From Roseibium sediminis (GTDB lineage Bacteria > Pseudomonadota > Alphaproteobacteria > Rhizobiales > Stappiaceae), in the NCBI RefSeq assembly GCF_008711325.1, contig NZ_VXDB01000005.1, forward strand, positions 124,001 to 188,000: a stretch of 64,000 nt of DNA, given 5' to 3'. Below, piece after piece: positions 3,379 to 27,185 of the stretch (position 1 is its first letter; each line of letters begins with the position of its first letter). Below the pieces are notes generated by a model. That model had not been told where the DNA came from and did no database searches. It saw only the letters and a program-made list of their open reading frames with translations. The position numbers and the translations under genes are program-made.

Positions 3379-3582
3379 TCAGGCGGCGCGGCGGAATGTC
3401 ATCGGCACGCTGCCGGACCGGCTGCGGCGGCGCTCTTCCGGCGGGATGTAAACGATGGCGCTGTGTTCATCGCAATAGGAGACACCAGCCTCAACACGGT
3501 TCGAGCAAGGAAACGTGTAGTTTCCCGCGTCGCCTTCGGCCCACTTGCAGCAACCCGGACGCGGGAGGCTCATGTTATCCAT
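3379..3582 (-). CDS. Mini GcrA-like protein (C-terminal Cys/His domain only)
   Basis: A 67-residue protein. The start was placed at the ATG preceded by GAGGAAGAGGAA; a longer in-frame reading adds 28 residues with no family character. The sequence contains CKWAEGD...F.C....AGVSYCDEH.AIVY.PP..RRR, which strongly resembles the C-terminal cysteine/histidine region of GcrA, the cell-cycle regulator that works with sigma70 at CcrM-methylated promoters. The N-terminal DNA-binding helix-turn-helix of full GcrA is absent. It is monocistronic, convergent with atpC. Function is inferred: it could modulate RNA polymerase or simply be a stand-alone metal-binding module. Confidence 0.7.
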   Translation of the reverse strand: MDNMSLPRPGCCKWAEGDAGNYTFPCSNRVEAGVSYCDEHSAIVYIPPEERRRSRSGSVPMTFRRAA

Positions 3583-3873: not shown

Positions 3874-5478
3874 CTACTCTGGAAGGATTCCACCAGCATC
3901 CAAAAGAGCTTGCGGGGTGTCGAGATCAAGCCGGGCAGCCCCTCCGATCTCAACCTCCGCAACCTGCTCGGGATGATCCGATACCAGATTTCGGCCGCCG
4001 ATATCGCCTTCAAGCGCCCTCAGGTCTGCAAAAAACCGCCGGTCCCAGAGAACAGGATTACCCCGCTTGCCGTCTGCTGTAGCCATCACAATGCCCTTGC
4101 CGGTCTCGGTCATGGCATTTGTAAGCGCCTTCATATCGCCGGTGGTTATTCGCGGCATGTCGCCAAGCAGAATCAGGACGCCATCGAGCTCTGGTGACAG
4201 AGCATTCATCCCGGTCCGGATGGAACTGGCCATCCCGTCGGCATAGTCCGGATTGTAGGCTGCAATGACTGGAAGATCCGCCAGCGCGCCTTGGACCCTG
4301 TCATGCATGTGCCCGTAGACCACAGCAATCTCGGCAAGGTCCGCACCGATTGCAGCCTCAACCACATGGCGCAGGACTGGCTTCCCATCCAGATGTGCCA
4401 ACAGTTTGTTTGGCCCGCCCATCCTGCTGGATTTCCCGGCGGCAAGAACAACAGCACCGATTCGCGGTTGCAGCGAGGTCGACCTGATCTCCCGTGGCTG
4501 GGGCCTGCTCTCAATTTCCATTAAAAGCCCCCCAACGCCCATTCCGGACAGATCGTGAGCGGTCACGGGTATGTCGGCGAGAATACGGTCAAGAACCCAG
4601 TCAAAACCATTCTCCCGCGGACTGCGGGCACAGCCCGGCGCTCCTATGACCGGGGTGTCATCAAGCTCACCAAGCAGCAAGAGATTCCCCGGATCAACCG
4701 GCATGCCGAAATGACGGACACGACCTCCTGCGACCTCTATTGCTGAAGGCAGAATGTCCTTGCGGTCGACCACTGCAGATGCCCCGAAGAGTATCAGAAG
4801 CTCTGCCCCTCCCGACTTCAGTTCACGCATTGCCTCGGCTACAGCCTCGGCAGAATGGGGGACTCGTTTTTCGCAGATGATGCTGCTGTTGCTGAGATCA
4901 AGACGCTGCTGAAGAACCCGGCGGGTCTTGTCCATGGTGGCTGGCTTGAGGTGATCCAACTGCGTTGCGATCAGGCCGACCTTCAGGGAGCGAAAGGGAT
5001 AAACACGCAGACCTTTCGCTATCAGGGTTTCAGCCTCGCGGACCTTGGTGTTTGAAGCTGCAAAGGGAATGATCTTTGCGGTTGCCACCATTCGCCCTGC
5101 GCTCACGCGCGCGAAGTTGGGCAGGGTCGCCAGCGTGATCGACGGGTCAACCCGGTTGAGCGAATTGACTGCGGTCTCATCGGCAACGAAGACGCCCGGA
5201 GCGTCGGCATAGAGATTCACGCGGCCCGTGAAGGGCGCATCAAGCCACATTCCTCCGCCATCAGCGGCCTGTGCGATCTTATGCGCAGCCTCATCTTCGC
5301 CAGTGTCATCGGCTGAAAGGCGGGCTACGGTTATGCTTTCGATCCCCGCGACGGCAAGGCCACGGACATCCACCCCGGTCAGAACATGCCCCTTCTTGAG
5401 GGTCCTGCCGGAAACCTGGGTGGAATGAGCGAGGACACATCCTTCGGCTTCTCCGATCGGCACCGGTCCAAATTCCAT
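3874..5478 (-). CDS. Molybdopterin-binding / molybdenum cofactor nucleotidyltransferase fusion (MocA-like)
   Basis: A 534-residue two-domain protein. The N-terminal ~330 residues resemble the MoeA/MogA-type molybdopterin-binding fold (VPIGEAEGCVLAHS near the start, LLILFGASAVVDRKDILP around residues 230-250). From about residue 340 there is an NTP-transferase domain with the nucleotide loop VVLAAGKSSRMGGPNKLL and GVLILLGDMPRI, as in MocA/MobA enzymes that add CMP or GMP to molybdopterin. It starts inside the stop of the XdhC-like gene (TAATG), so it is translationally coupled. Such fusions are known in alphaproteobacteria beside XdhC genes; the target molybdoenzyme is not in the window. Confidence 0.88.
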   Translation of the reverse strand: MEFGPVPIGEAEGCVLAHSTQVSGRTLKKGHVLTGVDVRGLAVAGIESITVARLSADDTGEDEAAHKIAQAADGGGMWLDAPFTGRVNLYADAPGVFVADETAVNSLNRVDPSITLATLPNFARVSAGRMVATAKIIPFAASNTKVREAETLIAKGLRVYPFRSLKVGLIATQLDHLKPATMDKTRRVLQQRLDLSNSSIICEKRVPHSAEAVAEAMRELKSGGAELLILFGASAVVDRKDILPSAIEVAGGRVRHFGMPVDPGNLLLLGELDDTPVIGAPGCARSPRENGFDWVLDRILADIPVTAHDLSGMGVGGLLMEIESRPQPREIRSTSLQPRIGAVVLAAGKSSRMGGPNKLLAHLDGKPVLRHVVEAAIGADLAEIAVVYGHMHDRVQGALADLPVIAAYNPDYADGMASSIRTGMNALSPELDGVLILLGDMPRITTGDMKALTNAMTETGKGIVMATADGKRGNPVLWDRRFFADLRALEGDIGGRNLVSDHPEQVAEVEIGGAARLDLDTPQALLDAGGILPE

Positions 5479-13362: not shown

Positions 13363-13806
13363 ATGACGTATTTCAACATCATACTGGTTCTGGCCGGATA
13401 TGCGCTGTTCGTGCCTGTTCTCTGGCAACTCGGCAACCTGTTTGTAAAACGCGTTGTCGACCTTGCCGTTGACGGCAAGATCCTGCCGGAGACGGAAGGC
13501 GAAGAAACCCCGCCCGCAAAGGTCGAGCGCGAGCTCAAGGCTGGCCGGGTGATTGGTCTTCTGGAGAGGGTGCTGCTGGTCGTCGGGCTCGTCTGGGGCA
13601 ACTGGCAGATCCTTGCTGCCGTGATCGCCTTGAAATCCGTGACGCGTTACAAGGATCTGGATAAGCGGCTGAATGCCGAATATTTCCTGATCGGCTCCTT
13701 GAGCAGCATCATATGGGCAATTGTCGTTGCCATCATGATCGTTGCCTATGACCGGGAGTTTGGCTTCGGTGTCTTGCCGCACGCTCTTCTGGACACGTCA
13801 AAGTAG
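13363..13806 (+). CDS. Membrane protein resembling the C-terminal half of DUF3307 proteins
   Basis: A 147-residue membrane protein with hydrophobic segments at about 5-25, 70-95 and 112-130. The stretch GRVIGLLERVLL...AAVIALKSVTRYKDL...AEYFLIGSLSS closely resembles the conserved C-terminal part of DUF3307 membrane proteins, which commonly accompany SatD. The N-terminal DUF3307 segment itself appears to be missing or replaced. Its position 21 bp after satD supports a shared operon. Function unknown; the naming rests on remembered family sequence, not on a search. Confidence 0.65.
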   Translation: MTYFNIILVLAGYALFVPVLWQLGNLFVKRVVDLAVDGKILPETEGEETPPAKVERELKAGRVIGLLERVLLVVGLVWGNWQILAAVIALKSVTRYKDLDKRLNAEYFLIGSLSSIIWAIVVAIMIVAYDREFGFGVLPHALLDTSK

Positions 13807-13858
13807 CCACATGCCCGCATCTCCCTTTGCTATGTCATGTTTCAAACAGTTCGGATTT

Positions 13859-13880
13859 GATATAAAGATTTCTTTATATC
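13859..13880. promoter_or_regulatory. Palindromic operator upstream of ahcY (SahR-like)
   Basis: GATATAAAG, ATTT, CTTTATATC is a perfect 9-bp inverted repeat with a 4-base centre, 152 bp before the ahcY start. This size and AT-rich form suit ArsR-family regulators. In Proteobacteria the ArsR-family protein SahR, which responds to S-adenosylhomocysteine, controls ahcY and methionine genes, so this is a candidate SahR site (inference). Confidence 0.55.
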
Positions 13881-13960
13881 TTTATTGAAGTGGAAACCCT
13901 TGCGCGCTATAACCCGCTCAATCGTGATGGCGGGACATGCGTCTGCCCGGATTTGAAAAG

Positions 13961-14032: not shown

Positions 14033-15421
14033 ATGACCGACTATATCGTCAAGGATATCAAGCTCGCCGATTGGGGCCGCACGGAAATCGAAATCGCCGA
14101 ACACGAAATGCCGGGCCTGATGGCCTGCCGCGCCGAATTCGGTGACTCCAAGCCGCTCAAGGGCGCGCGCATTGCAGGCTCCCTGCACATGACGATCCAG
14201 ACTGCGGTTCTGATCGAAACCCTCGTCGCGCTGGGCGCAGAAGTTCGCTGGGCATCCTGCAACATCTATTCCACGCAGGATCAGGCTGCAGCAGCAATCG
14301 CCGCTGCCGGCATTCCGGTCTTCGCCATCAAGGGCGAAACCCTCGAAGAATACTGGGACTATGCCGACAAGATCTTCGACTTCCCGGAAGGCGCAAACAT
14401 GATCCTGGATGATGGCGGCGACGCAACGCTCTACATCCTGATCGGTGCCCGAGTTGAAGCTGGCGAAACCCACCTCATCGAAAATCCGAAGTCCGACGAA
14501 GAAATTGCTCTCTTCGCGCAGATCAAGAAGCGCCTTGCTGCAAACCCGGGCTGGTTCACCAAGCAGAAGGCCCTCATCAAGGGCGTTTCGGAAGAAACCA
14601 CCACCGGCGTTCTGCGTCTTTACGAAATGCAGAAGAACGGCCAGCTGCCGTTCCCGGCCATCAACGTCAATGACAGCGTCACCAAGTCCAAGTTTGACAA
14701 CCGCTATGGCTGCCGTGAATCCCTGGTCGACGGTATCCGCCGCGGCACCGATGTCATGATGTCCGGCAAGGTTGCCGTTGTGTGTGGCTATGGCGACGTC
14801 GGCAAGGGCTCTGCCCAGTCTCTCGCCGGTGCGGGCGCGCGCGTCATCGTCACCGAAATCGACCCGATCTGTGCCCTTCAGGCGGCCATGGACGGCTTTG
14901 AAGTCAAGACGATGGAACAGGCCCTGCCGGAAGGCGATATTTATGTCACCGCGACCGGTAACAAGGACATCATCACCTTCGACCATATGCGTGGCATGAA
15001 GGACATGGCCATCGTCTGCAACATCGGTCACTTCGACAACGAGATCCAGGTTGCCGCGCTGAAGAACACCAAGCTTCGCCCGGTCAAGGATCAGGTCGAT
15101 ATGTACGAGTTCCCGGATGGCAAGCGGATGATCCTCCTGTCCCAGGGCCGTCTCGTGAACCTTGGCAATGCCACCGGTCACCCGAGCTTCGTGATGTCCG
15201 CCAGCTTCACCAACCAGGTGCTGGCGCAGATCGAACTGTGGAGCCGCGGCGACCAGTACAAGAACGAGGTTTACGTTCTGCCGAAGCATCTCGATGAAAA
15301 GGTCGCACGCCTTCATCTCGAGAAGCTGGGTGTGACCCTGACAGAACTGACAGAGGATCAGGCCCAATATCTGGGGATTAGCAAAACCGGTCCGTTCAAG
15401 TCCGAACACTACAAATACTGA
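14033..15421 (+). CDS. ahcY: Adenosylhomocysteinase
   Basis: A 462-residue S-adenosylhomocysteine hydrolase, which splits S-adenosylhomocysteine to adenosine and homocysteine and so relieves product inhibition of methyltransferases. Visible motifs: [15 protein letters not shown], the catalytic-region [18 protein letters not shown], the NAD-binding GYGDVGKG at 252-259, and the C-terminal tail KSEHYKY, which completes the NAD site of the neighbouring subunit. The start follows CAGGAAATTTTC. It lies between the regulatory PTS block and divL, conserved order in Rhizobiales. Strong codon bias suggests high expression. Confidence 0.98.
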
Positions 15422-15429
15422 TTTGGATG

Positions 15430-15460
15430 CCGGCAGACTCAATATTTAGTGGTCTGCCGG
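15430..15460 (+). other. Hairpin after ahcY
   Basis: CCGGCAGAC (15430-15438) and GTCTGCCGG (15452-15460) form a perfect 9-bp stem with a 13-base loop, starting 9 bp after the stop codon. No T-run follows, so it may protect the 3' end or terminate weakly. Confidence 0.5.
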
Positions 15461-15574
15461 AATCTGCCAGAATCACAAAGGTTAACGGGAATCATTGTTT
15501 CAGTGGGTCTCGTTAACTTTTTGGCAAGAGACTCTTCTTCGCGAATCCCAAAAAGGTTATGGTTTTAACGAATC
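15436..15574. promoter_or_regulatory. Cluster of seven GANTC sites upstream of divL
   Basis: GANTC, the CcrM adenine-methylation site, occurs at 15436, 15460, 15470, 15489, 15530, 15543 and 15570: seven times in 139 bp, where about 0.5 would be expected by chance. GTTAACG (15481-15487) and CGTTAAC (15511-15517) form an inverted pair resembling CtrA half sites (TTAAC). The cluster ends about 90 bp before the divL start, so methylation-dependent, GcrA or CtrA-linked control of divL is likely (inference). Confidence 0.7.
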
Positions 15575-15664
15575 AAGGGCGTTGAGGCACAAGCCCCTGA
15601 TTTGTTTCCAGGCTATCCGGGCAAAAGCCCGGGCCGGATAAAAGGCGGCGTAAGGGGATTTGGA

Positions 15665-18178
15665 ATGCCGATAGGCGGCTTCAGCGCTGGGCGTAATCGC
15701 TCGGCGTGGCGAGGAAGGATTCTGGCAACCGGAAAGGTATGGTGCGCAACGGCGAGCGCAACCTTGATGGTGCCCAGTCTGGCTCAGGCCGCTGATGAGG
15801 CGTCTCTGTCCTTGCCTTCTATCGATCCCAACACCGTCATGTTGCTCGGCGCCTTTGGTGGTGTCTGTGCATTTGCAATCACGGCGTCCGTTGCCTTTTT
15901 GCGGCAGCGTCGCAGCTCCGGCATTCTTTCCGAAAGCCTTCACCGCGAAAAAAGCGAACTCAAGCTGCGTGTCGACCGGCTTGAGGCCATGCTGAACTCC
16001 GACGAGCAGCGCGTGGTGGTCTGGTCGGGTGCTGGCAATGCCCCGCAGGTCTGGGGCGTTCTGCCGGAGCAGTCCGGCGTGCCGCGTGCAACAAACCAGC
16101 TGCTTGCCTTCGGGTCTTGGCTGACCGGAAAATGCGCATCCGACCTTGAGCGTCGGCTTGATGCCCTTTTCAGTCGCGGTGAGACCTTCACCTGCACCTT
16201 GACGACACGCCTTGGCACTTATGTGGAGGCGATTGGTCGCACGACTGGAGGGGCTGTTGTCCTTCGTCTGCGTGACATGACCGGTGAGCGCCAGATCCAG
16301 GCGGAGATTTCGGCTCGCAATGCTCGCATCTCTGGCGAATTGCATATGTTGCATGCGTTGCTGGATGCGCTGCCGTCTCCCGCCTGGCAACGTGACGCCC
16401 ATGGCAAGCTTATCTGGGCAAATCAGGCTTATGCGAAGGCTGTCGATGCCCCGGATGCCAAGGCTGCTGTGCAAAACGGCGCGGACTTCCTTGATTCGGC
16501 TGCACGCGAGGCTCTCGGCAAGGACCGCAATGAAGACGGATGCTTTACGTCCCGCATTCCGATGGTGGCCGCTGGCGAGCGGCGCGTCTTCGAGGTAACC
16601 GATGTCACCGCCAATGTTGGCGGGGCAGGCGTTGCAATCGATATCACCGAGCTGGACCAGCTTGGCAAGGAACTGACGCGCGCCGAGGAGTTCCACGGCC
16701 GGACCCTGGATCAGCTCGCAACCGCTGTCGCCATTTACGGCGGCGACCGGAAGCTGCAATTCTACAATGCCGCCTTCTGCCAGCTTTGGGGTCTGGATCC
16801 TGCCTTCCTTGAAAGCTCTCCGGAAGATGGCGCCGTTCTTGATGCGCTGCGCGCTGCGCGCAAGCTGCCGGAACAGGCCGATTACCGCGTCTGGCGGAAC
16901 AACATGCTGGAGAACTACCAGTCGGTTGAGTCCAAGGAAAACTGGTGGCACCTGCCGGACGGCCGCACCTTGCGCGTCATCGCCAGCCCGCACCCGCAGG
17001 GCGGCGTGATTTATATCTACGAGAATGTCACCGAGCGACTGGATCTTGAAAGCCGCTACAACGCGCTGATCCGTGTTCAGGGCGAGACGCTCGACAATCT
17101 CTCCGAAGCCGTTGCGGTGTTCGGTTCCGATGGTCGCTTGCGGCTTTGGAATCCGGCCTTCAGCAACATCTGGAGCTTCGAGGAAGATCGTCTTTCGCAG
17201 TTGCCCCACGTCAAGGAGCTGATCAGCGTTTGCGCCCTGTCCCAGCCTGAGCAGGATGCCTGGGGCCGACTGGCCGCAAATGTCACAAGCCTCGTCGACA
17301 ACCGGACGCAGGTTTCCAGCCGCATGGAGCGCCACAACGGCACGATCCTGGATTATGCCACCGTTCCGCTTCCCGACGGCGGCACGCTTGTCACCTTCGT
17401 GGACGTTACAGACAGCGTGAATGTGGAGCGTGCGCTCGTTGAAAAGAACGAGGCACTGGAACAGGCCGACGAACTGAAGAACGCCTTTGTCCAGCACGTG
17501 TCCTACGAATTGCGGTCACCGCTGACCAACATCATCGGCTTTGCCCAGCTGCTGACCGATCCGAAATTCGGTGAACTGTCTGACAAGCAAAGCGAATATG
17601 CCGACTATATCCGCTCCTCGTCTTCGGCCCTGCTCGCGATCATCAATGACATTCTCGATCTGGCGACGCTTGATGCGGGCATCATGGAGCTGGATCTTGG
17701 CGAAGTGGATGTGGCAGCCACGGTCTCCGCTGCCGTCGAGGGTTTGAAAGACCGGTTGGCAGAGGCGCGGATCAATCTTCGCACGGATGTCCCGAACGAT
17801 ATCGGCGTGATGGTCGCCGATGAAAAGCGCCTGCGGCAGGTTCTTTACAACCTGATTTCCAACGCGGTCCGCTACTCCGATGAAGATGGCATTGTTGATG
17901 TCGTCTGCAAGCGGAAAGACGAGGCAATTGAGTTCGTTGTGAAGGATCACGGGTGCGGCATACCGGCAGATATCCTCACACAGGTCTTCAACCGCTTTGT
18001 TGGCCATGACACCGGCGCACGCCGTCAAGGGGCGGGGATCGGTCTCTCACTCGTGAAGAGCTTCGTTGAACTGCACGGCGGCAAGGTGGATATCGACAGC
18101 GTTGAAGGCAAGGGAACAACGGTCACCTGCACCTTCCCCGCCAAGCCGGAACTCTCCGGCAGCATCGCGGCAGAATAA
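15665..18178 (+). CDS. divL: DivL: PAS-domain cell-cycle pseudo-histidine kinase with Tyr phosphoacceptor
   Basis: An 837-residue protein. The start was placed at the ATG following AAGGGGATTTGGA; a TTG 63 bases upstream is in frame. An N-terminal signal-like segment and a TM (NTVMLLGAFGGVCAFAI) are followed by three PAS-like domains (about 220, 345 and 470 onwards), a HisKA-type domain and a full ATPase domain (NLISNAVRYS, DHGCGIP, GAGIGLSLVKS). In the H-box FVQHVSYELRSPL the usual histidine is Tyr614. That replacement and the ahcY/tsaE neighbourhood identify DivL, which in Caulobacter binds DivK and regulates the CckA-CtrA pathway. It should sit at the inner membrane, possibly polar. Confidence 0.88.
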   Translation: MPIGGFSAGRNRSAWRGRILATGKVWCATASATLMVPSLAQAADEASLSLPSIDPNTVMLLGAFGGVCAFAITASVAFLRQRRSSGILSESLHREKSELKLRVDRLEAMLNSDEQRVVVWSGAGNAPQVWGVLPEQSGVPRATNQLLAFGSWLTGKCASDLERRLDALFSRGETFTCTLTTRLGTYVEAIGRTTGGAVVLRLRDMTGERQIQAEISARNARISGELHMLHALLDALPSPAWQRDAHGKLIWANQAYAKAVDAPDAKAAVQNGADFLDSAAREALGKDRNEDGCFTSRIPMVAAGERRVFEVTDVTANVGGAGVAIDITELDQLGKELTRAEEFHGRTLDQLATAVAIYGGDRKLQFYNAAFCQLWGLDPAFLESSPEDGAVLDALRAARKLPEQADYRVWRNNMLENYQSVESKENWWHLPDGRTLRVIASPHPQGGVIYIYENVTERLDLESRYNALIRVQGETLDNLSEAVAVFGSDGRLRLWNPAFSNIWSFEEDRLSQLPHVKELISVCALSQPEQDAWGRLAANVTSLVDNRTQVSSRMERHNGTILDYATVPLPDGGTLVTFVDVTDSVNVERALVEKNEALEQADELKNAFVQHVSYELRSPLTNIIGFAQLLTDPKFGELSDKQSEYADYIRSSSSALLAIINDILDLATLDAGIMELDLGEVDVAATVSAAVEGLKDRLAEARINLRTDVPNDIGVMVADEKRLRQVLYNLISNAVRYSDEDGIVDVVCKRKDEAIEFVVKDHGCGIPADILTQVFNRFVGHDTGARRQGAGIGLSLVKSFVELHGGKVDIDSVEGKGTTVTCTFPAKPELSGSIAAE

Positions 18179-18192
18179 GCTGCCGGTCGCCC

Positions 18193-19740
18193 ATGTCCGG
18201 TCAGCCGCTCCGCCAGCTTCCCACGCCCTTCACGTCAATCCTTCTGGACTGCGAAAGCGCAACCGTACGCCTTGCAGAGGACCTTGCTGTTATCCTGCGC
18301 AGGGAGGATTGCGTTCTTCTTTCCGGTGATTTGGGAGCCGGGAAATCCACCCTTTCGCGCGCATTGCTGCGAGCTCTGGCCGCCGATGCAGAGCTGGAAG
18401 TCCCCAGCCCGACCTTTACCCTTGTTCAGACCTATTCCCTCGACCGTCTGGAGGTTGCCCATTTTGATCTCTACCGGCTGGAAGAACCGGAGGAGGTCGA
18501 AGAACTGGGGCTTGCCGATTGCCTTGAAGCCGGCGCAGCTCTGGTGGAATGGCCTGAAATGGCTGCCGGGTTCCTGCCTGAAGATGCGCTCTGGATCCAG
18601 CTCAGGGAAACAAACACCGAAGGCGAGCGCGTCGCGGATTTCTGGTCGCAAAATCCCGAATGGCAGAAACGCATCACGCGAACCCGATTGCTGCGCCAGT
18701 TCTTGAACGCGAACGGGTTTGAAGGCGCAGCGCGGCACCACATTGCCGGTGATGCCTCCATCCGCAATTTCGAACGCATTTCGAAGAACAGTGAAATGGC
18801 AATCCTGATGGATTGGCCGGAGCCAAGTGGTGCCATGGGCACTCCAGAGGCTCTTGCCTACAATCGTCTGGTCCACCGGGCGCCCGATTGCAGGGCCTTT
18901 GTCGCGGTTGCCGGTGAGTTGCACAGCCGGGGCTTTGGGGCTGCAAAGGTGCTGGCGTCAGATGCAACGGCCGGAATGCTGCTGCTTCAGGATCTCGGGT
19001 CAACGGGAATTGTCGACGAAAATGGGCCGATTGCTGAGCGCTATCATGCAGCCATGCGGGTCCTGGCCGCCATGCACGAAAGGCCGCTTCCGCAGGACGT
19101 CCTTCTTCCAGATGGCGATATCTATCATGTCCCAGACTATTCGCTGGAAGCCCTGATCACCGAGGCAGAGCTCTATGTGGAATGGTTTGCGCCCGACCGA
19201 TTGAAACGGGAGCTGGAACAAGACGAGCGCCGTGCCTTCCGCGAGCTTTGGATGGCTGCCATCAGGGCAGCTGAGCAGGCGGAAATCGGCTGGGTTTTAA
19301 GGGATGTTCATTCGCCCAATATCCTGTGGCTTGAGGGGCGCAAAGGTGACGACCGAATCGGTTTGATTGACCTTCAGGATACGGTCATCGGGCCTCTGGC
19401 CTATGACGTTGCCTCGCTCGCACTGGATGCTCGTGTCGACATTTCACCACAGCTGGAAAGCGATCTGGTGGCGACCTACATTTCCGCAAGACAGTCAGTC
19501 AATCCGGCATTTGACCGGGTGCGGTTTGAAGCAGCCTATGCCATCATGGCCTGCCAGCGGATCACGAAGATCCTCGGGATATTCGTGCGGCTGGCAAGGC
19601 GGGATGACAAGCCGGGCTACATGAAACACGCGCCGCGCCTGATCGGATACATGGAGCGGGTCCTGCGTCATCCGGCGATGGCGGATCTGAAAGTTTGGTT
19701 CGAAAAAAGCGGCCTGTTTGATGGGCAAAACGCGGAGTAA
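18193..19740 (+). CDS. TsaE-AmgK fusion: tRNA t6A ATPase plus cell-wall amino-sugar kinase
   Basis: A 515-residue two-domain protein. Residues 1-150 are TsaE (YjeE): P-loop GDLGAGKS at 45-52, VPSPTFTLVQTY and HFDLYRLEEPEEVEELG; this ATPase drives the TsaBDE complex making t6A37 in tRNA. From about 165 to the end is an aminoglycoside-phosphotransferase fold with VLRDVHSPNILWL and IGLIDLQDT, matching AmgK, which phosphorylates N-acetylmuramate or N-acetylglucosamine at the anomeric position. murU, the next enzyme, follows 9 bp later, which supports AmgK. The fusion appears in Rhizobiales and joins two unrelated activities. Confidence 0.9.
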   Translation: MSGQPLRQLPTPFTSILLDCESATVRLAEDLAVILRREDCVLLSGDLGAGKSTLSRALLRALAADAELEVPSPTFTLVQTYSLDRLEVAHFDLYRLEEPEEVEELGLADCLEAGAALVEWPEMAAGFLPEDALWIQLRETNTEGERVADFWSQNPEWQKRITRTRLLRQFLNANGFEGAARHHIAGDASIRNFERISKNSEMAILMDWPEPSGAMGTPEALAYNRLVHRAPDCRAFVAVAGELHSRGFGAAKVLASDATAGMLLLQDLGSTGIVDENGPIAERYHAAMRVLAAMHERPLPQDVLLPDGDIYHVPDYSLEALITEAELYVEWFAPDRLKRELEQDERRAFRELWMAAIRAAEQAEIGWVLRDVHSPNILWLEGRKGDDRIGLIDLQDTVIGPLAYDVASLALDARVDISPQLESDLVATYISARQSVNPAFDRVRFEAAYAIMACQRITKILGIFVRLARRDDKPGYMKHAPRLIGYMERVLRHPAMADLKVWFEKSGLFDGQNAE

Positions 19741-19749
19741 GATTTCAAC

Positions 19750-20484
19750 ATGGCACAGGGGCAATTCCGGCCTTCACATGCAATGATTCTGGCGGCCGGA
19801 CTGGGCAAGCGCATGCGTCCGCTGACTGCAACCACCCCCAAACCGCTTATCGAAGTGAATGGCAAGGCCCTGATCGATCACGGCTTTGACCGTCTGGCCG
19901 AGGTGGGGGTCAAAACCTGTGTCGTGAACGTCCATTATCTCGCCGATCTGGTCGAGGTGCATGTCAAGCGCCGCGCCGATATGGAGGTGCTCGTTTCTGA
20001 CGAACGGGCGCAACTGCTGGAAACGGGCGGTGGCATCATGAAGGCCCTTCCGCTCCTGGGAAATGATCCCTTTTTCCAGCTGAATGCCGACACCGCCTAT
20101 TGGATTGAAGGCGTCAAACCCAATCTGGAGCACATGATCGAGGCTTGGGACAGCGAGCGCATGGATGCGCTGCTGCTTCTGGCTGAAACCGTCAATGCGG
20201 TTGGCTATTCCGGGCGGGGTGATTTTGAGATGGCGCGCGACGGAAGCCTGAGCCGCAGATTGGAGCGGCGCGTAACGCCCTTTGCCTATGCAGGAGCAGC
20301 CATTCTGCATCCCCGCCTGTTCGAGAACGCGCCTGAAGGGTCCTTTTCCATGAATGTCCTGTTCGATCGTGCCATTGAAGCGGGTCGACTTTTCGGGGTT
20401 CAGATGGAAGGCATCTGGCTGCATGTCGGGACGCCGGAAGCCATTCACGCTGCCGAACATGCCGTGCGCGAAAGCGCGGCCTGA
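19750..20484 (+). CDS. murU: N-acetylmuramate-1-phosphate uridylyltransferase
   Basis: A 244-residue sugar-phosphate nucleotidyltransferase. The N-terminal signature AMILAAGLGKRMRPLT..TPKPLIEV at about residues 12-38 binds UTP; ETGGGIMKALPLLG and FFQLNADTAYW carry the substrate and metal-binding residues. With AmgK encoded just upstream it forms the MurNAc-1-phosphate to UDP-MurNAc salvage route, which bypasses MurA/MurB and can raise fosfomycin tolerance. General family members include glucose-1-phosphate transferases, so the MurU assignment depends on the AmgK neighbour. addB starts 4 bp after it. Confidence 0.88.
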   Translation: MAQGQFRPSHAMILAAGLGKRMRPLTATTPKPLIEVNGKALIDHGFDRLAEVGVKTCVVNVHYLADLVEVHVKRRADMEVLVSDERAQLLETGGGIMKALPLLGNDPFFQLNADTAYWIEGVKPNLEHMIEAWDSERMDALLLLAETVNAVGYSGRGDFEMARDGSLSRRLERRVTPFAYAGAAILHPRLFENAPEGSFSMNVLFDRAIEAGRLFGVQMEGIWLHVGTPEAIHAAEHAVRESAA

Positions 20485-20487
20485 GGC

Positions 20488-23400
20488 ATGGGCGAGCATA
20501 GGCAACGAGCCTCGGTCCATACCATTGCGCCCTCCGTTCCGTTCCTGAAGACGCTGGCAACTGCTCTTGTAGATGGAACGCTGGTGCCGGGGTTTCGTCC
20601 GCTGGACGATCCTCTGCTGCTGCCGACCGCCACGTTGTATTTGCCGACCCGCCGTGCTGCGCGCCTGTTGCCGGAGATTTTTCAGGAGTTGTTTGGCGGG
20701 CGTCCGGTCTTGCTTCCGACAATCAGGCCAGTGGGTGACACGGAAGAAGATTTGCAGCTTCTTCTGGGCGCGGATGGGGATGGCGAGGCGCTCCCGCCCG
20801 CCATGCCGGTTCTGGAGCGTCATCTGGCCATGACACGCTTGGTCATGGCGTGGAAAGGTGCGCTTCGCCGCGAGGTTCTGAACCTCGGTTTGGATGAGCC
20901 GCTTGGTGTCCCTGCGTCTGCTGCAGACGCCGCATGGCTGGCAGCTGATCTTCTCGCCTTGATGGACGAGATCGAAACCGAGGAAGCCAACTGGTCGGAC
21001 CTTCAGGCTCTCGTGCCAGACGATCACGCGCGCTACTGGCAGATCACGCTCGATTTTCTGAAGATCGTGCAGGAGGCGTGGCCCGCTCATCTTGCAGAAC
21101 GTGGGGTGATGGATCCAAAGGCGCGTCGCTCGGCGCTCATCCGCAAGGAAGCGGAGCGTTTGTTGACGTCCCCGCCGCAGGGGCCGGTCATCGTTGCCGG
21201 AGTAACGGGGTCCGTCCCGGCAACCGCAGCGCTTTTGAAAGCCGTCTCGAGGTTGGATCAGGGCGCAATCGTGTTGCCCGGTCTGGACATTCGTCTTGAC
21301 GATGCGTCCTGGAAGACACTGGATGGGGCGAACAGCAAAAAAGGTGCCTCAGGGAGGGGAGTGGGAAAATCCGGCGGACACGCCGCGCACCCGCAATACT
21401 CGCTGAAGAAACTGTTGGCACGGCTGGAGGTGGAGCGCCGTGATGTCCTGCCACTCGGCGGCCCTGGCTCTGAAGCCGATATTGCCCGTGAACGACTGCT
21501 GTCGGAAGCTATGCGACCGGCTGAAACCTCTGACGGGTGGATGTCCTATCTCGCCGATCGGCAAGATGGCGGAACTGCTGCCGCACTTGAAAATGTCAGC
21601 CTGATAACGGCAAGAAACGAAGCCGGAGAGGCGCTCGCCATCGCCATAGCCCTGCGCGAAGCCTTGGAACAGGGCGAGACTGCCGCTCTCATCTCGCCGG
21701 ACCGGTTTCTCACGCGCCGGGTGGCAAGTGAGCTCGCCCGCTGGAAAATTCAGGTCGACGACAGTGCGGGCCGCCCGCTCGATCAGACGCCACCGGCCAT
21801 TCTGGCAATCTTGACCGCCAAACTGGCGCTTTTCGATTGTGATCCGCTGGATCTGCTTGCGCTGCTAAAGCACCCGCTCTGCCGATTAGGTTTGTCGGCA
21901 AAGGAAATTCGCTCCGCAGCACGGGCGCTGGAGCGTGGTGTGCTGCGCGGTCCCCGCGCGGCACCGGGAACGGATGGTCTGAAGGCCGCTGTCAAGGCTG
22001 CAGCAGATGAAGCGGAGCAGGCGCGGCTGGCAGAGGGCACCTACCGCGAACCGCCGCGTTGGAAGAAGATCCACGAAAAGGACTGGCCCGTTCTTCTCGA
22101 TTTGGTGGACAGACTGGCCGATGCTTTGGCACCGCTTGAAAGCATCGCCGGAGAGGCCGAGCCGAGACCGGTCGTGGAGCTTGCCGAAGCTCATGCCAGA
22201 TCCGTCGCAGCCGTTGCCGCGGATGAAACGGGCAACTCCGATGAACTTTATGCCGAAGAGGCCGGTGATGTGTTCGCTGCTTTCATGGCCGAATTGCTGG
22301 CCTCCGGAAACAGCGGGCTTTTGCTCGCGCCGACAGACTGGCCGACGGTTCTTGGAGCCCTGATGTCATCTCATGCGGTCCGCCGTCGTTTGCCCGGTGA
22401 CCCGAGGGTTCAAATTCTGGGGCCGATGGAAGCCCGCTTGCAACAGTTTGACCGGGTCATCCTTGGTGGTCTGAACGAAGGGACATGGCCGCAGAAGACC
22501 AGGAATGACCCCTGGCTCAATCGGCCCATGAAACGGGATATCGGACTGGAGCCGCCGGAGCGGCGCATCGGGTCCGCCGCCCATGATTTCTGCATGGGGT
22601 TCGGCGCGTCCCGGGTCATCCTGTCCAGAGCCAGCCGTACCGATGGAGCGCCAACCGTTGCGTCCAGATGGCTCCAGAGACTGACGACACTTGCCGGCGG
22701 TGTACTGACTTCGCAGATGGAAGAACGGGGCAACTTCTATCTGGGACTGGCTGAGGCCATTGATCGGGCAGATGGTCCTGTGCGCCCGGCAGAACGCCCG
22801 AATCCAAAGCCTCCTGTTGCGATCCGTCCGACACAGCTTTCCGTTACCGAAATCGAACGTTTGATCCGCGACCCTTACGCGATCTTCGCTCGGCATGTTT
22901 TGGATGTGCAGCCGGTCGACCCGATTGGTGGCGAGCCGGGGGCTGCGGACAAGGGCAACATCATTCACGACGCACTTGCCGAATTCTTGTCGACCTGGAC
23001 CGGTCCTTTCGATGAAACAGCTGTTTCCAGCCTGATCGACATCGGCGAGGAACTGTTTGAGCCCCTGACTGCATTTCCGGCGGTTCGTGCGCTCTGGTGG
23101 CCTCGCTTCCAGCGCATTGCGAAGGGGTTTGTTGCCTATGAAGCCTCACGGTCGCCAAATGTCGAAACCCGGTATCTGGAAGTTGGCGGCGGCGTTGACC
23201 TGAAATTGCCGGGGTTCGATTTCCGCCTGAAAGGCCGGGCGGACCGGATCGACATGATGACAAACGGCACCATCGGCATTCTGGACTACAAGACCGGTCA
23301 GGTTCCCAGCCAGAAACAGGTGGAGGCACTCCTGGCGCCCCAATTGCCGCTGGAAGCGGCCATGATCCGGCGGTCCGGCTTCAAGGATGTGCTGGGCGAC

Positions 23401-23667
23401 AGGCCGATTTCGGAATTCCTGTATTTGCAGCTGAAAGGTGGAACGGATCCGGTCAACGAGGTCTCCTGTTCGCCCAAGGAACGGGATGTTTCCGAATTGG
23501 CGGAAGATGCCTGGTCGCGGCTTGAAAGTTTGATCGCGCATTATGCAAAACCTGACAGCGGTTATCTGTCACGCGCCCGTGTGATGAAGGAGCGTGACAC
23601 CAACGGACCGTATGACCATCTTGCCCGTGTCGCGGAATGGTCAACCTCCGGGGAGGACGACGCATGA
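20488..23667 (+). CDS. addB: Double-strand break repair helicase-nuclease subunit AddB
   Basis: A 1059-residue AddB, of normal length for alphaproteobacteria. The N-terminal inactive helicase-like part starts LYLPTRRAARLLPE; the C-terminal RecB-type nuclease contains ILDYKTGQVPSQKQVEALLAPQLPLE cut by family blocks at about residues 930-960. With AddA it resects double-strand breaks for RecA loading, the counterpart of RecBCD. Its stop overlaps the addA start by four bases (ATGA), so the subunits are translationally coupled. It begins four bases after murU. Confidence 0.95.
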   Translation: MGEHRQRASVHTIAPSVPFLKTLATALVDGTLVPGFRPLDDPLLLPTATLYLPTRRAARLLPEIFQELFGGRPVLLPTIRPVGDTEEDLQLLLGADGDGEALPPAMPVLERHLAMTRLVMAWKGALRREVLNLGLDEPLGVPASAADAAWLAADLLALMDEIETEEANWSDLQALVPDDHARYWQITLDFLKIVQEAWPAHLAERGVMDPKARRSALIRKEAERLLTSPPQGPVIVAGVTGSVPATAALLKAVSRLDQGAIVLPGLDIRLDDASWKTLDGANSKKGASGRGVGKSGGHAAHPQYSLKKLLARLEVERRDVLPLGGPGSEADIARERLLSEAMRPAETSDGWMSYLADRQDGGTAAALENVSLITARNEAGEALAIAIALREALEQGETAALISPDRFLTRRVASELARWKIQVDDSAGRPLDQTPPAILAILTAKLALFDCDPLDLLALLKHPLCRLGLSAKEIRSAARALERGVLRGPRAAPGTDGLKAAVKAAADEAEQARLAEGTYREPPRWKKIHEKDWPVLLDLVDRLADALAPLESIAGEAEPRPVVELAEAHARSVAAVAADETGNSDELYAEEAGDVFAAFMAELLASGNSGLLLAPTDWPTVLGALMSSHAVRRRLPGDPRVQILGPMEARLQQFDRVILGGLNEGTWPQKTRNDPWLNRPMKRDIGLEPPERRIGSAAHDFCMGFGASRVILSRASRTDGAPTVASRWLQRLTTLAGGVLTSQMEERGNFYLGLAEAIDRADGPVRPAERPNPKPPVAIRPTQLSVTEIERLIRDPYAIFARHVLDVQPVDPIGGEPGAADKGNIIHDALAEFLSTWTGPFDETAVSSLIDIGEELFEPLTAFPAVRALWWPRFQRIAKGFVAYEASRSPNVETRYLEVGGGVDLKLPGFDFRLKGRADRIDMMTNGTIGILDYKTGQVPSQKQVEALLAPQLPLEAAMIRRSGFKDVLGDRPISEFLYLQLKGGTDPVNEVSCSPKERDVSELAEDAWSRLESLIAHYAKPDSGYLSRARVMKERDTNGPYDHLARVAEWSTSGEDDA

Positions 23668-26600
23668 GCGGGTTTCAGATCCCCGAATTGACCCGCGAGA
23701 GGCAGGACCGGGCATCCCAGCCGCGCGCCTCGGCCTGGGTGAGTGCAAATGCCGGGTCGGGCAAGACCTTCGTTCTCTCGCGCCGGGTTGTGCGTCTCTT
23801 GCTGGATGGCACTGATCCATCGCGCATTCTGGCTCTGACCTTCACCAAGGCGGCGGCTGCCGAAATGGCCACCCGTGTGTTCCGCATCCTCGGTGACTGG
23901 GTGACCATGGACGATGCCAAGTTGGCCGCTGAGCTGGAGGCAATCGAGGGAAAGAGGCCAAACGCCCAACGGGTTGCGTTTGCGCGGCGGCTCTTTGCAG
24001 AGGCGCTGGAAACCCCCGGCGGGTTGAAGATCCAGACCATCCACGGGTTCTGCGAGGCCTTGCTGCATCAGTTTCCGCTGGAGGCGAATGTTGCCGGGCA
24101 TTTTCAAGTGCTCGATGATCGAATTGGCGGTGAGTTGATGGGGGATGCACGGGCCACCGTGCTGCATCTTGCCGAAACACGACCCGACAGCGCCTTTGGC
24201 AAGTCCCTTGCCACGGTCATCGACCTGATGGCTGACGGAACGGCGCAAAAGGCGCTCGATGAACTTATTCAAAACCGGGATGCCTTGCGCCTTTGGCTGG
24301 AGGAAACCGGCGGACTGGAACCTGCGCTCTTGCAACTGGCGCAGCAGTTGGGTCTCTCCGGCAGCACCGGTGTCACCGATATCGACGCCCGGTTCCTGTC
24401 GGAATGCCCGTTTGACCGAAACACATTGCTCAGCTACGCCGAAGCCTTTCGTCTGGGCTCCGGCAACGACCTGAAACTTGCAGACGCGCTTGTTTCCTGC
24501 GCTGACACTCAGGACCCAGTCTCTTACAAGAAGGCTTGGCTATCCCTGTTCCTGACGAAAGATCTTGAGCCTCGCAAAAAGCTCGCCAACAAGAAGGTGG
24601 CGGAGGAATTCCCGAACATCATCGAAGCGTTGCTTGCCGAACAAGACAGACTGGTTAGCCTGCTTAATGAGCGGCGGACTGCTGTTACCTTCGATGGAAC
24701 CAGCGCGCTTCTGCGTCTGGCTTACGGCGTGATCGACCGATACGAGAAAGCGAAGATCGCCAAGGGGTATCTCGATTTCGAGGATCTTGTGGTCAAGACC
24801 GCAAGGCTGCTTGCCCGTTCTGATGCGGCGCTTTGGGTCCAGTACAAGCTGGATCAGGGGCTCGATCACATTCTGGTCGATGAGGCGCAAGATACCAGTC
24901 CACGCCAATGGCAGGTGGTCAGCTCGCTTGCGGCCGAATTCTTCTCCGGGAATGGGGCAAGCGAACGCGTTCGGACGCTCTTTGCGGTTGGGGATGAAAA
25001 GCAGTCGATCTACTCCTTTCAGGGAGCCGTACCGGCCTATTTTGATGCCATGCGCCGCAACTTCTCCAAACAGGCAGAAGATGCGCAACACACGTTTCAT
25101 TCGGTTGACCTGCAATTGTCCTTCCGCTCAACCCCCGATGTTCTGGGCGCGGTCGATCTGGTCTTCAAGAAAAGGGAAGCCTTTCAGGGCCTCTCCCAAA
25201 AGCTTGAGGCTCCGGTCCACGAGGCAATTCGCAAAGACCCCGGCCTGATCGAAATCTGGCCGCTGGAGCAGGAAGCGGATGTTGCCGAACCGGAAGACTG
25301 GCGCGATCCGATAGATCATGTGGGCACGGGTTCACCGCCCGCGCGGGTCGCGCGGCGTATTGGTACAGCGATCAGTGAATGGATGAAGAACGGGGAAGCC
25401 GACCCCGGTGACATCATGATCCTCGTTCGCAAACGTGGTGCGTTCGTCGAGATCCTGAACCGAGAGTTGAAACAGCGCGGCATCCCTGTTGCGGGAAGCG
25501 ATCGTCTTGTTCTGACTGAACATATTGCCGTTCAGGATCTGGCAGCGCTCGGGCGCTTCCTTTTGCTGCCCGAAGACGATCTCTCGCTTGCATCGGTGCT
25601 GAAGAGCCCGCTGTTCCAGCTGAATGATGATGATCTTCTGGACATCGCTCGGGATGAAGACGGTCGGCGGCGGGCAGGCACACTGTGGCAGAGCCTGCTT
25701 TCTCGGGCTGAGGCGAGTGGGAAATGGGATCAGGTTCGCGAACGCATCGAGAAATGGCGCGCGCGAGCCGACTTCATGCCACCTTTCGAGTTCTTTTCGC
25801 GGCTTTTGTCTGCCGATGGGGGACGGCGGTTGTTCCGCAAGCGGCTTGGCGTGGAAGTCGATGACGTTCTGGACGAGTTCCTGAACCTGACGCTTGCCTA
25901 TGAGCAGACCGGAACTCCGGGCCTGGAGGGTTTCCTCGCCTGGATGGCCGCGGCACCGACGGAGATCAAGCGTGAACTGACCAGCACCAAGGGTCTGGTG
26001 CGCGTCATGACAGTTCACGGTTCCAAGGGTCTGGAGGCAAAGGTTGTCATTCTGGTTGATCCGGGCGGGAAGCCCGTCACAAGTGCGCATGACCCGGCCT
26101 TCCTGCCTTTGGACAGAAAGATCACGGGCGCGGCTCCGGCGCTTGTATGGCTTCCGTCAAAGGCCGATCGGACAAATTGGCATGCCTCCGCCATTGCGGA
26201 ACGTCACGATGCACAGGCAGAGGAATATCGCCGACTGCTTTATGTGGCGCTGACCCGGGCTGAGGATCGGTTGGTGGTCTGCGGTTGGGAACCAAAGCGC
26301 GGCGCAGCGGAAGATGCCTGGTACAGTCTCGTGGCCCGAGCCTTGAAGCCCGGCGCGCGCGAAATCAAGGCTGCAGATGGGCAGGTTGTTTCCTGGCATT
26401 GGCAAAAGGCGGCAAACGATCCTGCACCGACAGCAATTAAGGCTGGTCACGGCGCAGGCGAGGGAACGGCGTCCCCAATGTTCGACCTGCCACCTCCGCC
26501 GCCCGAATGGCTGTCGGTTCCCGTGAAGGCGCCCAAGCGCAAGCGGCGGCTTCAGCCGTCCCGGGTTTTTGAAGTGATGGAGGAAAAGGAACGCATCGAG

Positions 26601-27185
26601 CCTGTGCCGGCAGCCGAACGGCTGAAGAGCCGGCTTGCTGATCCGTCGTGGCCTCTGGAGCGCGGCAGGATCGTCCACCGGCTTTTGGAGCTGCTCCCCA
26701 ACATGCCGCAGGACCAACGGGACGCGGCAATCGAGCGCTACCTTGGAACCTCCTTGCCGCAAGCCTTCCGCTCCAGACAGGAGAGCCTTGCCAGCGAAGT
26801 GAGGGAAATTCTTGCCCGTGAGGAGTTCGCGCCGCTGCTGGCATCCTCATCGCGAGCAGAAGTGCCGGTCGTCGGCACGCTGACAACATCCGGCGGCGAA
26901 GAGATTTCCGTGTCCGGTCAGATCGACCGTCTGGTCGATATGGGCGATCACATTCTGATCGTGGATTATAAAACCAATGTGAGCGTTCCTTCGTCGCCCG
27001 AAAACGTCCCTGCAGAGTATCTGGCCCAGCTGGCTGTCTACAGGGAGTTGTTGAAGCCGGTCTTTCCCGGCAAAACCGTGAGCGCGGCGCTTCTTTGGAC
27101 AAGTGCTCCAAAGCTTATGGTTCTGCCCGAGGAACTTCTGGATGAAACGTTCCGTCACCTAAAGCCGGACGGCTCGCCCGCTTGA
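23664..27185 (+). CDS. addA: Double-strand break repair helicase-nuclease subunit AddA
   Basis: A 1173-residue UvrD-type helicase with a C-terminal nuclease. The start is the ATG in the ATGA overlap with addB; an in-frame start 27 bases upstream lies inside addB. The Walker [10 protein letters not shown] is at about 27-35, motif Ia [10 protein letters not shown], motif [28 protein letters not shown], motif [16 protein letters not shown], motif [13 protein letters not shown]. The nuclease core [10 protein letters not shown] is near residue 1097. It supplies the 3'-5' motor and one nuclease of AddAB. trxA follows 88 bp later. Confidence 0.97.

Follow-up and report, generated by a model that had tools for sequence, protein, structure and literature searches.

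Conserved GANTC sites before divL in Stappiaceae suggest promoter control by CcrM methylation and GcrA

Introduction

In Caulobacter, methylation of the ctrA promoter is one link between replication and CtrA. C. crescentus transcription starts with a GANTC between the -10 and -35 elements are described as activated at 40-60 min, the site lying at about -29 in ctrA P1 and at -24 in podJ P2 (PMC4287350). GcrA is reported to bind sigma-2 and to speed open complex formation (PMC7403470), and PMC7987155 relates GcrA-dependent activation in C. crescentus to methylated TGATTCG or, in a wider form, YGAKTCK. The product of divL is described as stimulating CckA (PMC7200025), and PMC7987155 states that the GcrA regulons of both C. 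crescentus and Brevundimonas subvibrioides include this gene. That report judges divL likely to be GcrA-regulated in only a few of 13 species, one per order, and finds no preference for the extended motif among the B. subvibrioides targets.

Among putative ctrA promoters of Rhizobiales, only 50% are reported to have GANTC (PMC8116508), and another study counted GANTC before cell-cycle genes and drew no conclusion on control (PMC2877005). In searches of an open-access library, covering main texts as opposed to supplements like the GcrA ChIP list for Brucella (PMC6813329), we saw no account of methylation acting on divL in Stappiaceae or Hyphomicrobiales. The original prediction, of a methylation-dependent feedback loop through DivL not known to be described in this lineage, agrees with this for Stappiaceae; the idea is not wholly new, since divL is a published member of the GcrA regulon in Caulobacterales (PMC7987155). 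GcrA control of divL is known in Caulobacterales, and what is new here is the proposed Stappiaceae case, with a notable depth of conservation.

Results

The divL locus and its GANTC sites

We analyzed a 64-kb stretch of Roseibium sediminis DNA (the window), in which seven GANTC sites had been claimed at 15436..15574 before divL. All seven are present between ahcY and divL, starting at 15436, 15460, 15470, 15489, 15530, 15543 and 15570 (Table 1). The divL reading frame opens with an ATG at 15665, behind AAGGGG, and its product carries PAS, HisKA and HATPase domains in Pfam. A Tyr instead of the phosphoacceptor His, which we take to be the mark of DivL, occupies that position in 74 of the 75 orthologs checked, the remaining one giving no match to the pattern, and the gene behind the sites was thus named correctly. 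NCBIfam gave no DivL equivalog over cut-off among the 25 matches listed. DivL is encoded, at 71-77% identity, by 17 of 30 loci from named genomes, nearly all of them Roseibium, Labrenzia or Stappia, with two under vaguer names. The genes 3' of divL follow closely, and spacing suggests a probable operon from divL to 27185. Given the short gaps throughout 15665-27185, genes for peptidoglycan recycling and DNA repair could come under a replication-timed divL promoter too, the last two genes being presumably AddB/AddA-like.

Table 1 Features of the ahcY-divL region (window positions)
Feature	Position	Strand	Basis or conservation
ahcY, S-adenosylhomocysteine hydrolase, upstream neighbour of divL	14033..15421	+	TIGR00936, 618.7 bits, over cut-off
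First hairpin after ahcY, holding GANTC 15436 and 15460	15425..15465	+	Fold; ends read by hand from dot-bracket
GANTC in first ahcY hairpin	15436..15440	.	No site here in 18 aligned relatives
GANTC in first ahcY hairpin	15460..15464	.	Kept in 15/19 same-genus genomes, own included
GANTC beside the hairpins	15470..15474	.	No site here in 18 aligned relatives
Second hairpin, GTTAACG/CGTTAAC stem then T run, holding GANTC 15489	15480..15519	+	Fold
GANTC in terminator-like stem	15489..15493	.	Site at about the same place in 3/18 relatives
Conserved site 1, GACTC	15530..15534	.	About -40 of predicted start; 29/29 same-genus; lost in 12/14 g16
Conserved site 2, GANTC	15543..15547	.	Predicted -35/-10 spacer, about -27 to -23; 29/29 same-genus; present in further families
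Predicted -10-like element TATGGT	15558..15563	+	Conserved; TANNNT association with extended sites
Putative hairpin at predicted 5' end of divL mRNA	15569..15604	+	Pairing and some covariation
Conserved site 3, part of CGAATCA (- strand: TGATTCG)	15570..15574	.	At predicted transcription start; 29/29 same-genus
AAGGGG, Shine-Dalgarno-like sequence of divL	15652..15657	+	Sequence; conserved in same-genus alignment
divL, 837 aa, PAS / histidine-kinase-like protein, Tyr at phosphoacceptor position	15665..18178	+	Pfam domains
Eighth GANTC, in-gene, divL nt 54-58	15718..15722	.	Conserved
tsaE-kinase fusion, murU-like gene, two PD-(D/E)XK nuclease / UvrD helicase genes	18193..27185	+	Close spacing 3' of divL

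To place this cluster against the rest of the genome, GANTC was counted in 40 stretches of the same genome (678,966 bases, hand-chosen rather than random) together with the window, about 15% of the genome. The 742,966 bases hold 840 sites, a mean of 0.16 per 139 bp, and outside the divL cluster no 139-bp stretch of this sample contains more than four, so that no other intergenic region sampled is as dense over that length. With crude gene calls, and the divL region included, GANTC density comes to 1.0 per kb for coding and 1.80 per kb for intergenic DNA. The latter predicts 0.25 sites per 139 bp, for which the Poisson probability of at least seven is about 1e-8. The chance expectation of half a site given previously was of the right order, although this genome calls for a lower figure. 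When the window is shuffled with dinucleotides preserved, 0.73 sites are predicted per 139 bp, or 337 per 64 kb against 74 observed. For Alphaproteobacteria at large, GANTC is reported as depleted overall and enriched more than 1.5-fold on average in intergenic DNA (PMC3973325).

Over other lengths, comparable counts do occur. The region upstream of the ccrM-type gene also has seven GANTC, within 432 bp (positions 13460-13891 of locus L198), three of them packed into 25 bp. A further intergenic region has seven in 1261 bp, and one 69-bp intergenic gap with three exceeds the divL cluster in density per base. The 300 bp upstream of gcrA contain a single site. Separately, three GANTC fall within 62 bp (4841-4902 of locus L228) inside an apparent coding sequence, which we take to be lexA from its N-terminus.

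Conservation of three upstream sites

We compared the ahcY-divL region among relatives, "same genus" denoting label g1 of the genome collection and g14-g19 being further genus labels. The region was aligned in 19 same-genus genomes including our own, after which 29 same-genus and 41 other Stappiaceae genomes were examined (70 of the 71 in the family; G082 was excluded for a truncated match). Same-genus regions hold three to seven GANTC (n = 29), our own genome having the most. Sites 15530, 15543 and 15570 (sites 1-3) keep a fixed spacing of 13 and 26-27 bases in all 29. This triplet is found in 10 of the 41 other Stappiaceae and thus in 39/70 of the whole family; the full triplet is missing in 31/70, being present in 0/15 g18, 0/3 g17 and 2/14 g16 genomes. 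The middle base of site 2 can vary (T in 38, A in 1; n = 39).

Sites 1-3 lie within a conserved block, GACTCTTCTNCGNGAWTCNCAAAAAGGTTATGGTTTNANCGAATCA (a consensus, with exceptions), which is partly recognisable in other Stappiaceae genera and in some other families. In the sampled part of our own genome, the block matches at divL with 65.5 bits, compared with 8.3 bits for the next best match. Some of the sequences retrieved with the core HMM had also been among its seeds, L030 and L102 from other families being two examples, and E-values for those sequences are not independent. The four remaining upstream sites (15436, 15460, 15470 and 15489) are in or next to the hairpins that follow ahcY and are variable. 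Part of the cluster is thus conserved before divL in relatives, and the refuting outcome named with the original prediction, an absence of such conservation, does not apply: three of the seven sites are kept in 29/29 genomes and 15460 in 15/19 of those aligned, the other three in few.

A conserved site inside divL

An eighth GANTC, 15718, is found within divL in all 29 same-genus genomes, in 55/70 Stappiaceae and in 3/15 g18 genomes; L112 is scored as a miss in this count because the start rule took another codon, and the site is visible there. Codon 19 spans the middle of the site. Of the 29 genomes, 18 have AGT (Ser) there and 11 have ATT (Ile), codons that make up 7% of Ser and 28% of Ile codons here. 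The GANTC is constant although codon 19 alternates between Ser and Ile: the residue changes and the methylation word does not. Across the initial 1.5 kb of divL, with unaligned positions numbered from the gene start, every other position carries GANTC in at most 5/29 genomes. Retention of the in-gene site against free codon choice suggests selection on the methylation word itself.

An extended motif before divL across the order

Site 3 fits YGAKTCK, since CGAATCA reads TGATTCG on the other strand, and TGATTCG is present in 29/29 same-genus regions. On either strand, YGATTCG precedes divL in 29/29 same-genus and 39/41 other Stappiaceae genomes. Beyond the family, 114 genomes had a DivL match and upstream DNA was obtained from 85, many of the other 29 matches being weak, partial or at a contig edge and a few being set aside for economy; for 25 of the 85, the match served to estimate where the gene begins. 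Among 60 syntenic divL regions from 33 other families, 52 carry YGATTCG (27/33 when one region per family is taken), against an average of 7.4 of 60 in shuffles and 3/60 for the ahcY coding end. The motif is also present in 22 of 25 further other-family genomes, for which no AhcY was detected in the 1.3-1.5 kb taken and no shuffle control was made. In total, 74 of 85 genomes from other families of the order have YGATTCG before divL. As it is kept even where AhcY was not detected, the motif seems to travel with divL.

In Stappiaceae, site 3 mostly takes the form CGAATCA/G, and TGATTCG predominates in other families, the site displayed per region in this comparison having been chosen with a preference for a -10. 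Any extended site was accepted in counting TANNNT 3-9 nt upstream, which was found in 24 of the 39 other-family genera that have such a site, compared with 3/80 such sites elsewhere in our own genome and 5.6% of random positions. For other orders, 37 genomes had a DivL match and 28 were examined; with gene starts guessed, YGATTCG lies before divL in 4/28 and in the coding control in 2/28. We therefore claim the feature for the order only.

Proposed control of divL by CcrM and GcrA

GcrA (PF07750) and a CcrM-type domain (PF18755) were found over cut-off in all 31 genomes searched, our own and 30 relatives. PF18755 (RAMA) is, we assume, the C-terminal domain of CcrM and so marks this enzyme; among 14 controls it matched in Caulobacter only. 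A simple sigma-70 scan did not find a promoter at divL, and no recognisable -35 stands before the -10-like element at 15558-15563. With the scan empty, the -10 is argued from conservation instead. If TATGGT is taken as the -10, the predicted start falls near 15570; site 3 would then coincide with the start, and site 2 would span about -27 to -23.

The resemblance of these GANTC positions to those of C. crescentus, together with the presence of GcrA and CcrM-type genes in 31/31 genomes, makes GcrA activation at methylated sites the most likely reading. We propose, with a probability of about 0.7, that the divL promoter is controlled by CcrM methylation, read by GcrA with sigma-70 RNA polymerase. 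Under this proposal, the shift in methylation after DNA replication probably acts as a switch for divL. Methylated sites would allow GcrA to recruit and open RNA polymerase at divL; passage of the fork would leave the divL sites hemimethylated until CcrM acts, and hemimethylation could produce a pulse or a dip of divL expression tied to replication of the locus. DivL would in turn act on the CckA-ChpT-CtrA relay, closing the loop. From the sequence we infer methylation, GcrA binding, the start site, the timing and the feedback loop at divL, with activation the more likely direction. Counting against control by GcrA and CcrM are the triplet gaps in Stappiaceae (31/70), the near-control level of YGATTCG outside the order, the negative sigma-70 scan, the lack of an extended-motif preference among B. 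subvibrioides GcrA targets (PMC7987155), and the report that promoters of cell-cycle-regulated genes are not GANTC-enriched in Ensifer (PMC8725594).

On its predicted layout, the locus shares with ctrA P1 and podJ P2 of C. crescentus a GANTC in the -35/-10 spacer at a similar distance to the start (PMC4287350), and with GcrA-bound promoters of that species the extended TGATTCG motif (PMC7987155). Unlike ctrA P1 and podJ P2, divL here has three GANTC at fixed spacing plus a conserved one in the gene, and its start is predicted from sequence. Compared with divL of the Caulobacterales C. crescentus and B. subvibrioides (PMC7987155), the gene, the proposed regulator and the motif are the same, whereas the order is Hyphomicrobiales, with YGATTCG in 74/85 genomes of other families. 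GANTC clusters at replication and cell-cycle genes are likewise described for the gcrA and repABC promoters of Agrobacterium tumefaciens; unlike that species, where methylation represses gcrA (PMC11514494), our genome has only the one GANTC noted above upstream of its own gcrA.

A wider and more doubtful possibility is that Hyphomicrobiales inherited a replication-coupled divL promoter built on TGATTCG at the start, which in Roseibium and near genera grew into an island of four sites at fixed spacing, one of them coding, acting as a combined replication-timing sensor. Perhaps DivL, instead of ctrA itself, would then couple CtrA activity to passage of the fork. With its conserved methylation sites, the divL promoter is another possible seat of the replication-CtrA link in the order, and the analysis names the specific bases to change.

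Alternative explanations

The main rival concerns the sign of the effect. Methylation could repress the divL promoter directly, by hindering sigma-70 RNA polymerase and with no GcrA activator, so that divL would peak when hemimethylated. The precedent is the gcrA promoter region of Agrobacterium, which has six GANTC in 250 bp and is reported to be repressed by methylation, an effect detectable even in engineered E. coli (PMC11514494), and the position of site 3 on the predicted start fits such hindrance. Against this, site 3 has the extended form that is associated with activation by GcrA (PMC7987155), and repression of a purely steric kind would not require YGATTCG to recur across families. 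We consider direct repression unlikely, if still deserving of attention.

An improbable explanation is that the sites arose incidentally from constraints on RNA structure, namely the hairpins that follow ahcY and the one in the divL leader. The segment 15422-15530 folds at -48.2 kcal/mol (z -7.44 vs shuffles) into two hairpins after ahcY, and 15436, 15460 and 15489 do lie inside these strong structures; sites 1, 2 and 15718 lie outside the hairpins. Site 3 falls in the 5' arm of the leader hairpin (15569-15604), which has some covariation. In that hairpin 83% of cells are paired, compared with at most 51% for slid versions, and three pairs are changed on both sides, a number that 127 of 500 shuffles reach, as do slid versions (2-4); the structure is only moderately supported. 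Its 5' arm, CGAATCA, is invariant in 23 rows, picked by the triplet that all genomes of these three genera have, and its 3' arm is variable. With CGAATCA invariant and the pairing arm variable, the conservation of site 3 needs more than the hairpin to account for it. The extended site is moreover retained in families with different gene order and flanks. As a side observation on the hairpins at 15425-15519, some letters of the first region are conserved within the genus, and a 3'-UTR RNA could be present; at gathering thresholds, the sole Rfam match in the 64-kb window is tRNA.

The GTTAACG/CGTTAAC pair had been compared with CtrA half sites, and CtrA could bind it to control divL, possibly beside GcrA. 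The inverted pair is real, but it forms the stem of a strong hairpin followed by a T run (AACTTTTT). A simple terminator scan did not list 15480-15519, which is best read as a terminator-like hairpin of ahcY and not a CtrA box. The spaced form TTAA-N7-TTAA occurs before divL in 0/29 same-genus genomes and in 3/130 regions overall, and we rejected a CtrA box there. The right arm of the hairpin, GTTAACTTTT, is kept in all 29 same-genus genomes, compared with 9/29 for the left-hand TTAAC. Promoter-adjacent GTTAAC is present in 29/29 same-genus, 1/1 g14, 5/5 g15 and 10/15 g18 genomes, and its retention on the right makes a lone CtrA half site possible; against this, GTTTACTTTT is found in 13/14 g16 and 3/3 g19 genomes. 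Control by CtrA through this pair thus appears to have little chance of being correct.

That the cluster is an artefact of chance or density with no regulatory role, as the general intergenic enrichment (PMC3973325) and the excess of sites in our genome over the other 28 same-genus genomes might suggest, is very improbable given the highest 139-bp count in 743 kb and, for the four conserved sites rather than the other four, the positions kept in 29/29 genomes and the codon restriction.

A GcrA-like small protein

The window also encodes, at 3379-3582 on the - strand, a protein of 67 aa whose resemblance to GcrA is confined to the sigma-interacting C-terminal domain; it has no DNA-binding part. 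Among the 19 same-genus genomes it is present in our own and 11 others, all 11 copies in relatives being confirmed by phmmer. The Pfam match is weak and below cut-off, and hhalign gives a probability of 95.8 to GcrA for a query with one extra residue. Judging by this resemblance, the protein might compete with GcrA for sigma-70.
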